64,000 nt of DNA from Phycisphaerales bacterium (lineage in GTDB: Bacteria > Planctomycetota > Phycisphaerae > Phycisphaerales > UBA1924), in the NCBI GenBank assembly GCA_035627955.1, contig DASPKU010000012.1, positions 124,001-188,000 on the forward strand. The letters run 5' to 3'. Positions within the stretch are counted from its first letter, which is position 1; the number at the start of each line of letters is the position of its first letter. This document shows, piece after piece, positions 19,919 to 21,800 of the stretch. The translations under genes were made by a program, and so were the position numbers. Under the pieces are notes generated by a model that did not search any database, had not been told where the DNA came from, and worked only from the letters and a program-made list of their open reading frames with translations.

Positions 19919-20277
19919 TGAACGAGGCCGAGCTCCAAGGGAAGATCTTCAACACGTTCATGAGGGCCGGTTCTCCGTGGACGTCCCTCGACGCCGAGGC
20001 CGTGGACGAGCTCGCGTTCCACCTGACGGACTGGCTCGCTGACCTTGAGAAGCTCGTCACGCTCTACAACTCCGAGCGATGGGACCCCGAGCAAGCCGAA
20101 GACATCATCCTCGGGTTCCTGATTCATGCTTCGAACCACGTGCCTGCGGCTCACCGCATCTTGATGGACAAGCCAGCCACCGATGTCTTTCAACTCGGCG
20201 CTGTTCAGGGCACAGGCCAACCCCGTCGCAAGCCGGGCGAGCCATACCCGGACGAACCGCCTCCGGGGAACCCGTAG
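19918..20277 (+). CDS. Hypothetical protein coupled to purM
   Basis: A 119-residue acidic helical protein starting at ATG 19918, which overlaps the purM stop (TGATG). It begins [20 protein letters not shown] and has AVDELAFHLTDWLADLEKLV and AEDIILGFLIHASNHVPAAH; no family recognised. Its last residues are encoded by a palindromic repeat, and its TAG stop lies in the loop of that hairpin (GGAACCCGTAGGGGTCC). The coupling suggests co-expression with purM, but not a role in purine synthesis. Confidence 0.6.
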   Translation: MNEAELQGKIFNTFMRAGSPWTSLDAEAVDELAFHLTDWLADLEKLVTLYNSERWDPEQAEDIILGFLIHASNHVPAAHRILMDKPATDVFQLGAVQGTGQPRRKPGEPYPDEPPPGNP

Positions 20278-20329
20278 GGGTCCTCTCCTAGCCGGGGGTC
20301 GGAGCGAGTCTTCGAGCGACACCCCCGGT
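20268..20329 (+). repeat. REP-like composite palindrome, copy 1
   Basis: A mini-hairpin GGAACCCGTAGGGGTCC (imperfect) is followed after ~7 bp by a larger imperfect palindrome starting CCGGGGGTCGGAGCGAG and ending CGAGCGACACCCCCGG. Its orientation matches copy 3 and is inverse to copies 2 and 4. Confidence 0.75.
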
Positions 20330-20403
20330 ACGGTGACGCGCGAGGCACGGACCCGAAGGGTTCCCCACCCGCAACCGCCTGCTCGGGCCCAAGTAGAATC
20401 GAC

Positions 20404-20907
20404 ATGAGATCCCCCGCGGCCAAGGTCTTCGTCTGCGTCGCCCTCGGCAGCCTGCTGCTCTTCGGCCTCTTCGCCTACACCAGCCTGCAGCGCCAGCACG
20501 AGGTCGACGTGAACTCCGGCCGCACAAGGCAGGCGACCACGCTCTGGGGCCTGAACTTCGGTTGGGAGGAGCAGGACACCGAGTTCTCCCGGCTGCTCGC
20601 GCAGGCCGACCTCGAGCCCGCGCCCACCGTGTGGCGGCGTTATCACACCAATGCCCGCTACCTCCGCGTCCACTACACCTACGGCGGGATCATGTCCACC
20701 GTGCGCGGGCTGCTGGAGTGTTCGGACTCTCTCAACGTACCGACCCCCGACCGCGTACGGCTCGCCCTCGCCGCCCGCCAGTGCCTCCAGGCCCGCGACC
20801 GCTTCAGCCTTGAGGTGGACTTCGACAACCCGATGATTGAGGTGCGGGCCGAGAACGGCACGCCCCTCGAACGCTGGCCCGTTGCGTCGCCCTCCCGGAC
20901 CCCGTAG
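20404..20907 (+). CDS. Hypothetical membrane-anchored protein
   Basis: A 167-residue protein with one N-terminal hydrophobic helix (VFVCVALGSLLLFGLFAYTS), so it is probably anchored with the rest outside the membrane. The body (TTLWGLNFGWEEQDTEFSRL, WRRYHTNARYLRVHYTYGG) has no recognised domain. The C-terminal residues PSRTP and the TAG stop come from the mini-hairpin of repeat copy 2, so the repeat probably replaced the original end of the gene. It lies between repeat copies 1 and 2. Confidence 0.6.
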   Translation: MRSPAAKVFVCVALGSLLLFGLFAYTSLQRQHEVDVNSGRTRQATTLWGLNFGWEEQDTEFSRLLAQADLEPAPTVWRRYHTNARYLRVHYTYGGIMSTVRGLLECSDSLNVPTPDRVRLALAARQCLQARDRFSLEVDFDNPMIEVRAENGTPLERWPVASPSRTP

Positions 20908-20987
20908 GGGTCCTCTTGAGCGGTCCGGGGGTGTCGCTCGCGGACTCGCTCCGACCCCCGGCTACTGGCGATGACGCCTACGGCGTC
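20897..20987 (+). repeat. REP-like composite palindrome, copy 2
   Basis: Perfect mini-hairpin GGACCCCGTAGGGGTCC (20897-20913), larger palindrome from CCGGGGGTGTCGCTCG to CTCCGACCCCCGG (20925-20961), then a second mini-hairpin GACGCCTACGGCGTC (20973-20987). It flanks the transposase gene on its 3' side and is inverse to copy 3. Confidence 0.8.
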
Positions 20988-21030
20988 GGGGAGCGCGGCT
21001 CCGACCGCATCGGCAGCTGCCCAACTCCCC

Positions 21031-21471
21031 TCAATCCCACACGTACCGCTCGTCCCACTCCATCTTGTACTTCGTCATGATCGCCCGCATCTCGTCCTGG
21101 AACCCGCGTTCCGCGTGGTGCTCCTTCTGCCCCGCGATGTACGCCCGCAGCGGCTCCACCCCGGACTCGCCGATGGAGAACGCGAAGTACCCCTCCTGCC
21201 ACTTGAACGCCCCCCGCTCGTTCATCCACCGCGACGAATCGCGCTTGACGTCCAGCATCAGGTCCGACAGTGCCGTCACCTTCCCCAGGCTCACCAGCAT
21301 GTGCACGTGGTTCGCCGTGCCGCCCATGGCAAGAAGCACCGACGCCCGCCCGCGGCAGACGCCGCCGATGTACGAGTACAGGTCGCTCTCCAGCCCCTCG
21401 GGGATGAAATCGGCGCGCTCCTTGGTCGAGAACGCAATGTGCAGGAGGATCTTCGTCAGTGTGGTCGCCAT
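21031..21471 (-). CDS. REP-associated tyrosine transposase (IS200/Y1 family)
   Basis: A 146-residue Y1 HUH-type transposase. The metal-binding HUH motif is HVH in TANHVHMLVSLGK, and the catalytic Tyr is in the helix AYIAGQKEHH. The N-terminal IAFSTKERADFI and the WQEGYFAFSIGESG strand are family-typical. It acts on single-stranded DNA hairpins. It sits between inverted copies of the palindromic repeat (copies 2 and 3), the arrangement known for RAYT genes that spread REP elements. No accessory IS200/IS605 gene is present. It is intact and so possibly active. Confidence 0.85.
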   Translation of the reverse strand: MATTLTKILLHIAFSTKERADFIPEGLESDLYSYIGGVCRGRASVLLAMGGTANHVHMLVSLGKVTALSDLMLDVKRDSSRWMNERGAFKWQEGYFAFSIGESGVEPLRAYIAGQKEHHAERGFQDEMRAIMTKYKMEWDERYVWD

Positions 21472-21496
21472 GTGCTGAGCCTACCGCGCACCCGCC

Positions 21497-21622
21497 GGAC
21501 CCCGTAGGGGTCCTCTCCAGTAGCCGGGGGTCGGAGCGAGCCCCGAAGGGGGCGAGCGACACCCCCGGTCCGCGGCCGCGCGATGATGTTGGTGTTCGAT
21601 GAGCTCGACCCCGCAGGGGTCG
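21497..21622 (-). repeat. REP-like composite palindrome, copy 3
   Basis: Mini-hairpin GGACCCCGTAGGGGTCC (21497-21513), then the larger palindrome from CCGGGGGTCGGAGCGAG to ACCCCCGG (21524-21568) with an inner CCCCGAAGGGG, and another mini-hairpin CGACCCCGCAGGGGTCG (21606-21622). It flanks the 5' side of the transposase gene. Confidence 0.8.
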
Positions 21623-21698
21623 TCGCTGCATACGACCGCACGGTTGCTGTTTCGTCCATCCGATCACGGACGCATCGTCGCACCCGCGCGCGCGGCGA

Positions 21699-21800
21699 GG
21701 ACCCCTACGGGGTCCAACGTCCCGCGCCGCCGCATACCGGGGGTGTCGCTCGCGGACTCGCTCCGACCCCCGGCTACTGGAGAGCAGGCCTACGGCCTGC
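21699..21800 (+). repeat. REP-like composite palindrome, copy 4
   Basis: GGACCCCTACGGGGTCC (21699-21715), then the large palindrome in the same orientation as copy 2 (21737-21773), then GCAGGCCTACGGCCTGC (21784-21800). The final hairpin has a different stem but keeps the TAC loop, so it is a compensated variant. Confidence 0.8.

Follow-up and report, generated by a model that had tools for sequence, protein, structure and literature searches.

A probable REPtron/REPIN-like locus with an IS200-like Y1 transposase and three-hairpin repeat units in a Phycisphaerales bacterium

The tnpA locus

The subject of this analysis is a tnpA gene and the palindromic repeats around it in a Phycisphaerales bacterium, within a stretch of 64,000 nucleotides (nt; positions 124,001 to 188,000 of contig DASPKU010000012.1, assembly GCA_035627955.1), referred to here as the window. 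The gene encodes an intact Y1 transposase and is surrounded by four composite palindromes in alternating orientation (20267–21800), as an initial annotation made from the letters of the sequence had stated; copies 2 and 3 flank the gene, and copies 3 and 4 form an inverted doublet (Table 1). The closest named relatives are Planctomycetota and Phycisphaeraceae metagenome-assembled genomes, in agreement with the planctomycete-like character attributed to the DNA. We consider this to be, probably, a REPtron/REPIN-like locus of a second kind (REP, repetitive extragenic palindrome; REPIN, REP doublet forming a hairpin), in which a low-copy, IS200-like TnpA of subclass 1.2 has its own DNA recognition unit.

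On the strand bearing its foot, a window copy consists of a mini-hairpin with a GTA loop (H1), a spacer whose last four letters are GTAG (in copy 1, CTAG), a large hairpin (H2, CCGGGGGT...ACCCCCGG) and, 11–37 nt further on, a second mini-hairpin (H3). The initial annotation had recognized the joining of a mini-hairpin to a large palindrome and the recurrence of GTA, TAC and GCA loops on unlike stems (GCAGGCC in copy 4, GACGCC in copy 2), and its conclusion that base pairing rather than sequence is conserved holds well, as stems differ while loop and layout are kept. It had not mentioned the GTAG foot that the large palindrome has in copies 2–4, and its description of copy 1 needs correction, since the mini-hairpin there has one mismatch, the foot is CTAG and the spacer is 2 nt short. 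The H1 stem length and the following gap add up to 17 nt in copies 2–4 and in a fifth genomic copy, despite their differing H1 stems, and to 2 nt less in copy 1.

A scan of the window returned six places that combine a mini-hairpin of 5 bp with a large hairpin and, at 17–18 nt, an AG or TG foot: the three GTAG copies, with 8-bp arms, and three chance-like ones with 6-bp arms. The 17-mer that opens the large palindrome occurs exactly five times in the whole genome, four times in the window and once on contig C15; this last copy is laid out in the same way but has another mini-hairpin stem. No palindrome was found at the three additional places in the genome that match the 17-mer with two mismatches. 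Taken by exact sequence, the window family would be a nearly private repeat of five copies, but this view was overturned by the structural model described below.

Table 1. Features of the tnpA locus, in window coordinates.
Feature	Position	Strand	Details
Unit copy 1	20267–20364	+	H1 20267–20283 (one mismatch); foot CTAG 20288–20291; H2 20292–20328; H3 20349–20364
Unit copy 2	20897–20987	-	H1 20973–20987 (GTA loop on - strand); foot GTAG 20962–20965; H2 20925–20961; at the place of H3, an opposite-sense mini-hairpin 20897–20913
tnpA, intact single-domain Y1 (HUH) transposase, 146 amino acids	21031–21471	-	NHVH as HUH motif and YIAGQKEHH as Y motif; resembles TnpAY1 subclass 1.2 in motif and length
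Unit copy 3	21497–21622	+	H1 21497–21513; foot GTAG 21520–21523; H2 21524–21568; H3 21606–21622 (GCA loop)
Unit copy 4	21699–21800	-	H1 21784–21800 (different stem); foot GTAG 21774–21777; H2 21737–21773; H3 21699–21715

The first hairpin of copy 1 contains the stop codon of an open reading frame (ORF) ending at 20277, and the hairpin at 20897–20913 in copy 2 contains the last codons of an ORF ending at 20907; the C-termini of these two ORFs are therefore encoded by the repeats. A search of Rfam gave a single match, at 47 bits against a threshold of 268; it set a microRNA family over the two inverted copies and was taken as chance.

Architecture of the unit at related loci

Relatives of the window gene were collected from one scan of genome contigs, which gave 20 (from Planctomycetota, Acidobacteria, Armatimonadota, Verrucomicrobia and Bacteroidetes), and from the best matches in two genome samples, one of the family (100 genomes) and one of the phylum (294); 84 loci were left after a profile and coverage filter. 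Flank symmetry was scored at 74 loci (the 84 minus six repeats of counted loci, the truncated L034 and three with short or N-rich flanks; four near-duplicate pairs are included), by comparing the upstream 250 nt with the reverse complement of the downstream 250 nt. Architecture was studied at 73 loci, or 146 flanks, with the four near-duplicates taken out and three short-flank loci put in.

At most of these loci, the two flanks match each other in inverted orientation. The symmetry score had a median of 69 and exceeded the highest value (29) of 370 single-base shuffles at 64 of the 74 loci; with flanks taken further away (58 loci), it never rose above 27. The commonest arrangement is H1 – TAG foot – H2 – H3 – tnpA – H3' – H2' – H1'. 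Stem sequences vary between loci, between genomes and between the paralogs of the window genome, while the layout is retained; the feet are mostly [A/G]TAG, with ATAG and GTAG commonest, and TTAG and GTTG are also found. Between the H1 loop and the H2 arm, 17 nt is the most frequent distance: with an AG foot, it occurs in 57 units, and 18 nt in 12, while none of the remaining spacings between 8 and 29 nt occurs more than three times; the same scan on the opposite strand found eight at 17 nt. For 138 H2 anchors with an AG or TG foot, a perfect 5-bp H1 lay at 17 nt in 60 cases, at 18 nt in 13 and at 16 nt in five, and at each other spacing from 8 to 39 nt in no more than four.

The unit is strand-specific. 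Read on the strand of the foot, the mini-hairpin loops are mostly GNA (47 of 65 canonical units, 10 of 11 reversed units, with no TNC), and six of seven single stem mismatches are G-T, the other being G-A, with no A-C. The strict scan with an AG foot found canonical units at 42 of the 73 loci, on both sides at 24 of them, and reversed units at eight, including the window locus (L012). No conserved cleavage dinucleotide of the sort that the guide rule of one TnpAREP would predict (CT with TAG feet, CA with TTG feet) was evident near the hairpins among 32 TAG-type and seven TTG-type families, each represented by one unit; in the same families, a weak G-N3-G follows both mini-hairpins.

These regularities bear on one alternative, that the palindromes arose by chance. 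The DNA is GC-rich, short stems arise easily in it, and 20 pair-shuffled windows submitted to the window scan gave zero to three loose matches each. The strict layout behaves otherwise: ten sets of shuffled flanks held zero or one strict unit each against 69 observed, the counts peak at one spacing, and inverted symmetry exceeds every shuffle at the great majority of loci. Chance is refuted by these controls, and we give it practically no weight.

The layout extends beyond Planctomycetota. A script found it, with a spacing of 16–18 nt, on at least one side of five of eight such loci (L027, L029, L031, L033 and L037) and missed it at L025, L039 and L040, although L025 has it by eye, with shorter arms in the large hairpin. 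In Bacteroidota, a Persicobacter plasmid has the layout on both sides of the gene, also by eye.

The transposase

The window protein matches the Pfam family Y1_Tnp (E 6.8e-20). The initial annotation had called it a RAYT (REP-associated tyrosine transposase), and this finds no support: the protein reaches 16.6 bits with the NCBIfam RAYT model NF047646, for which the cut-off is 80, and 52.9 bits, just under the cut-off of 55, with the IS200 model NF033573. In an alignment of 19 sequences (the window protein, four paralogs from its own genome and 14 relatives), the two HUH histidines and the residues Y111, Q115 and H119 do not vary. At E ≤ 0.001, the IS200 model matches each of the 19 and the RAYT model 12 of them (best 1e-7). 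The four paralogs share 25–41% identity with the window protein, and no tnpA in multiple near-identical copies was seen in the genome. A profile of the family retrieved eight PDB sequences (E ≤ 0.01), all of IS200/IS605 type and none of them a TnpAREP, the best being ISDra2 (2xm3, E 9e-16).

The Y motif of the window protein, YIAGQKEHH, follows the pattern Y-x3-Q-x2-HH, found at 67 of the 73 loci, whose proteins are 144–165 amino acids long (median 150). In the parts of Quentin et al. (2018, PMC6006769) consulted, this motif, with a length of about 148 amino acids, is the signature of TnpAY1 subclass 1.2, a group entered as 'no' for REPs, generally without IS200 terminal structures and occurring mostly in Cyanobacteria and Bacteroidetes; Table 1 of that paper gives the TnpAREP subclasses a Y motif of the Y...NP type, which the window protein does not have. 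On motif and length, the window TnpA would thus be subclass 1.2-like, in an IS200-like group.

A predicted AlphaFold structure (mean predicted local distance difference test score 88.4) matches ISDra2 and IS608 at E values of about 1e-8 and TnpAREP (4er8) at 1.8e-5. The predicted monomer superposes on TnpAREP 4er8 at 2.9 Å and on IS200 transposases at about 5–13 Å; the tyrosine helix possibly packs in cis in the predicted monomer.

The locus might also be a drifted true RAYT/REP system with a class 2 TnpAREP. The GTAG foot, the REPIN-like inverted doublets and an in-frame insertion in dnaE2 (see below) such as that reported for GTAG REPs (PMC3733652, in the text consulted) would all agree with such an origin, as would the RAYT matches of 12 aligned proteins and the superposition on 4er8. 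The window protein is, however, far under the RAYT cut-off and has the Y motif of subclass 1.2 rather than Y...NP, no TnpAREP figures among the PDB profile matches, and the unit has three hairpins. A drifted RAYT thus seems improbable. The RAYT/REP layout proposed by the initial annotation survives in part: a Y1 transposase does lie among REP-like palindromes with a GTAG foot, but these are not plain REPs, being built of three hairpins in a fixed register.

Distribution of the units

A covariance model was built from 13 units; a count of base pairs on its 13 rows was not used as proof of covariation, because the parser that picked them demanded perfect stems. The window genome was searched alone at E ≤ 0.05, and the family and phylum samples, which share this genome, with strict filters and at most 46 (family) or 15 (phylum) candidates scored per genome, so that the unit counts are lower bounds; the window genome gave 21 units in the family scan, 11 in the phylum scan and 30 when searched alone (26 at E ≤ 0.001). 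The units of the window itself fell below the threshold of that search, the best reaching 19.6 bits.

Units and tnpA genes tend to occur together. In the family sample, units were found in 55 of 100 genomes: 41 of the 46 with tnpA against 14 of the 54 without a tnpA match. The corresponding figures for the phylum sample are 79 of 294 genomes, 68 of 89 and 11 of 205, and the Fisher p values of 9.5e-11 (family) and 6.4e-36 (phylum) are too small, because the genomes in both samples are related, which tells against reading them at face value.

Most units lie away from any tnpA. Among the 150 family matches listed, of 532, 123 are more than 2 kb from the nearest such gene, as are 26 of the 30 units of the window genome, the other four lying within 2 kb. 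According to a rough, home-made gene caller, 20 of 25 of these 30 units are intergenic, four intragenic and one overlapping. By inspection, the units of the window genome fall into sequence families, three of which match the flanks of the tnpA paralogs L009, L010 and L011. For two other families (L112, L133, L134, L140, L149, L152, L156 and L159; L136, L137 and L148), no matching tnpA was found; they are orphans, or the gene has been lost or is unassembled.

Units also occur in groups. In some tandem arrays (contig C4 of the window genome, contig C13 of genome G059), neighbouring units share a mini-hairpin, with an overlap of 13 nt. In genomes G044 and G088, all 20 pairs of neighbouring matches no more than 75 nt apart run plus then minus, with H3 facing H3 (several are the same site in both genomes), and these doublets look as if the locus had had its tnpA taken out. 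Draft contigs C201, C42, C133 and C219 of G088 end within about 200 nt of units, so the absence of tnpA from a draft may be an assembly gap. Two further repeats were seen: a different short palindromic repeat in G083 (L162:1772–1799), whose copies number several dozen and often form inverted pairs separated by about 105 nt, possibly another REPIN-like family; and a repeat of about 180 nt (L213:5406–5589, contig C17 of G044) found in more than 30 places in G088 at about 78–91% identity.

An ordinary IS200/IS605 insertion sequence, with subterminal hairpins mistaken for REPs, would account for the IS200-like sequence and fold of the protein and for the presence of hairpins near both ends of the gene. 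It would not be expected to have the inverted flanks observed, in which the foot is on opposite strands at the two ends, as each end of an IS200/IS605 element is described as having its guide 5' of the palindrome (PMC8266576, in the text consulted). Most of the listed units are, moreover, remote from any tnpA, and no near-identical tnpA copies were seen in the window genome. We therefore regard this explanation as unlikely.

Presence and absence of units at orthologous sites

In genome G083, a tnpA locus with its units lies between two genes that are also found in G027, of the same genus (flanks 75% and 68% identical), and the aligned blocks are separated by 1252 nt in the former and 276 nt in the latter. 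At one doublet site, 420 nt in G044 correspond to 42 nt in G088 (flanks about 90% and 98% identical); several other G044 doublets are also present in G088, and further ones tried meet the ends of G088 contigs.

In the window genome, a doublet of units is inserted in frame in a DnaE2-like gene. Close homologs of this gene were found in 23 of 40 other genomes, and 16 of the 23 lack the insert. Of 19 homologs fetched, 12 have 0–51 nt at the insert place and seven have long linkers without full units; the four judged by coordinates have 15–51 nt. The long-linker loci are L223, L225, L226, L229, L232, L236 and L238; the two measured by script are 543 and 582 nt long, and L232 has two partial unit matches. 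The site seems to tolerate varied inserts. The adjoining ImuB-like gene also carries an in-frame, repeat-derived insert (L169:1149–7430; contig C6:186500–194000 of the window genome), and GTAG REPs have been reported in DnaE2 genes (PMC3733652, in the text consulted). Presence and absence at orthologous sites, together with the in-frame doublet in DnaE2, suggest from sequence comparison that the units are mobile.

The hairpins might instead act as RNA, as terminators or as elements of the 5' or 3' untranslated regions controlling tnpA, rather than as substrates of the transposase. H3 is often directly before the start codon of tnpA and directly after its stop codon, GNA loops and tolerance of G-T pairs would suit RNA as well, and copies 1 and 2 of the window either provide or border the stop codons of the preceding ORFs. 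Units do, however, point either way, pair up as inverted doublets, and occur at a distance from tnpA and within coding frames, and a run of T was not evident by eye at the window copies, no terminator scan having been made. An RNA role of this kind is very improbable.

Proposed mechanism and the case against it

A REPtron/REPIN-like system with its own unit would probably work as follows. The unit, read on one strand, is H1, then about 12 nt with [A/G]TAG or GTTG as the usual ending, H2, about 10–45 nt, and H3. TnpA would bind H2 together with its foot in single-stranded, folded form, the strand concerned probably being the lagging-strand template. The H1 and H3 mini-hairpins, held by the 17-nt register at fixed places in the complex, may place or mark the cleavage sites. 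TnpA would then cut and rejoin the DNA, and the doublet H1-H2-H3...H3'-H2'-H1', with or without tnpA inside, would be moved or copied. In the genomes, units occur in inverted doublets, in tandem arrays or singly, for the most part remote from the gene, and tnpA paralogs have units of their own sequence. Recognition of folded single strands, as in IS200/IS605 and TnpAREP, fits the Y1 fold and catalytic residues and a strand-specific unit whose foot stands at the base of a hairpin, and for one TnpAREP the choice of the cleavage site has been shown to be guided by the foot (PMC8266576, in the text consulted).

The sequences themselves show the architecture, the register, the strand asymmetry, the link with the gene, the dispersal, the matching of families to three paralogs of the window genome, and presence or absence at orthologous sites; binding, cleavage and mobilization by TnpA and the roles of H1 and H3 are what we infer. 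Several observations weigh against this interpretation. At sites of presence and absence, insertion is indistinguishable from deletion, except by parsimony in DnaE2, where absence is the commoner state, and no exact junctions, ends or target sites were found at the empty sites. The flank symmetry is less striking under a harsher control: 3000 random pairings of upstream and downstream flanks between loci gave a median of 20, a 99th percentile of 67 and a maximum of 132, only 39 of the 74 true pairs exceed that percentile, and nine also do so in direct orientation. The high tail of the random pairs arises because units of different loci resemble each other, related loci sharing stems, and are themselves palindromic.

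The layout is not universal either. A loose parse of the commonest arrangement succeeds in 73 of the 146 flanks and, read on the opposite strand, in 27; the strict AG-foot scan found units of neither sense at 25 of the 73 loci, several of which have TTG feet by eye. The window family itself has only five copies, with H1 nearest the gene, which is the rarer arrangement. A divergent paralog in the window genome (L013, contig C3:102474–102896, 25% identical) has inverted hairpins of another kind and no standard unit. The Bernardetia locus (L243, plasmid NZ_CP147018.1) also has no standard unit, other short repeats flanking the gene with GTAG nearby, and its flanks have either a variant of the layout or a different one. 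Units were not found in five of 46 (family) and 21 of 89 (phylum) genomes with tnpA, and they were found in 14 of 54 and 11 of 205 genomes without a tnpA match. The exact Y-x3-Q-x2-HH motif is absent from six of the 73 relatives.

A broader proposal, for which we see an even balance of arguments, is that subclass 1.2 TnpA proteins would form a phylum-spanning mobile system of single-stranded DNA apart from both IS200/IS605 and RAYT/REP. Its mobile unit would be an inverted doublet of three-hairpin modules, in which the GNA mini-hairpins 17 nt from the large hairpin and the guide-like foot would be obligate parts of the cleavage complex, and units would drift in sequence along with the transposase they belong to, their structure and register being preserved.

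If the REPtron/REPIN-like interpretation is right, a Y1 subclass described as having no DNA substrate would gain a candidate one, with sharp rules (strand, foot, 17-nt register and GNA mini-hairpins). The findings suggest that the origin of REPIN-like repeats is tied to more than one transposase lineage, offer an explanation for dispersed palindromic repeats of Planctomycetota and other phyla, and add to the cases in which such repeats sit in frame within a gene for an error-prone polymerase. No description of the three-hairpin unit or of a link between subclass 1.2 and repeats was found among the titles and abstracts listed by a literature search, which is not proof of absence from print.

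Comparison with known systems

The system would work like a REPtron/REPIN and yet lacks the RAYT features tested in the protein and the REP features tested in the unit; it is therefore considered a variant with a new kind of unit. It shares with REPtrons and RAYTs a low-copy Y1 transposase flanked by hairpins whose foot is of the GTAG type, inverted doublets that are dispersed on their own, and an in-frame insertion in dnaE2, as reported for GTAG REPs (PMC3733652, in the text consulted). It differs from them in its IS200-like transposase with Y-x3-Q-x2-HH, and in its three hairpins, of which two are GNA-type mini-hairpins, in the 17-nt register and in feet that include ATAG, TTAG and GTTG. A REP is defined as a single hairpin of 20–40 nt with a GT[AG]G foot and a high copy number, and the three-hairpin unit, with its varied feet and a window family of five copies, falls outside this definition. 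The dispersal of inverted doublets without a transposase gene is that of REPINs and bacterial interspersed mosaic elements, and the window genome has tandem arrays too.

Length, Y-x3-Q-x2-HH and low copy number are those of subclass 1.2 in the parts of PMC6006769 consulted, whereas the proteins described here come from Planctomycetota, Acidobacteria, Armatimonadota, Verrucomicrobia and Bacteroidota and have structured inverted flanks at most of the loci tested. IS200/IS605 elements (IS608, ISDra2) have the same HUH/Y1 fold and give the best matches in sequence and structure, but here the ends are inverted, the spread is mainly that of repeats without the gene, and the same-sense, 5'-guided subterminal hairpins of those elements are lacking. 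TIRYTs (Y1 transposases associated with terminal inverted repeats), of which 20 of 26 were assigned to subclass 2.1 and the other six to 2.2 or 2.5 (PMC6006769), resemble the locus in having a Y1 gene between inverted repeats, which in TIRYTs are long and terminal (PMC3733652); in the text consulted, those repeats are not described as hairpin triplets, such as the units that flank tnpA here.

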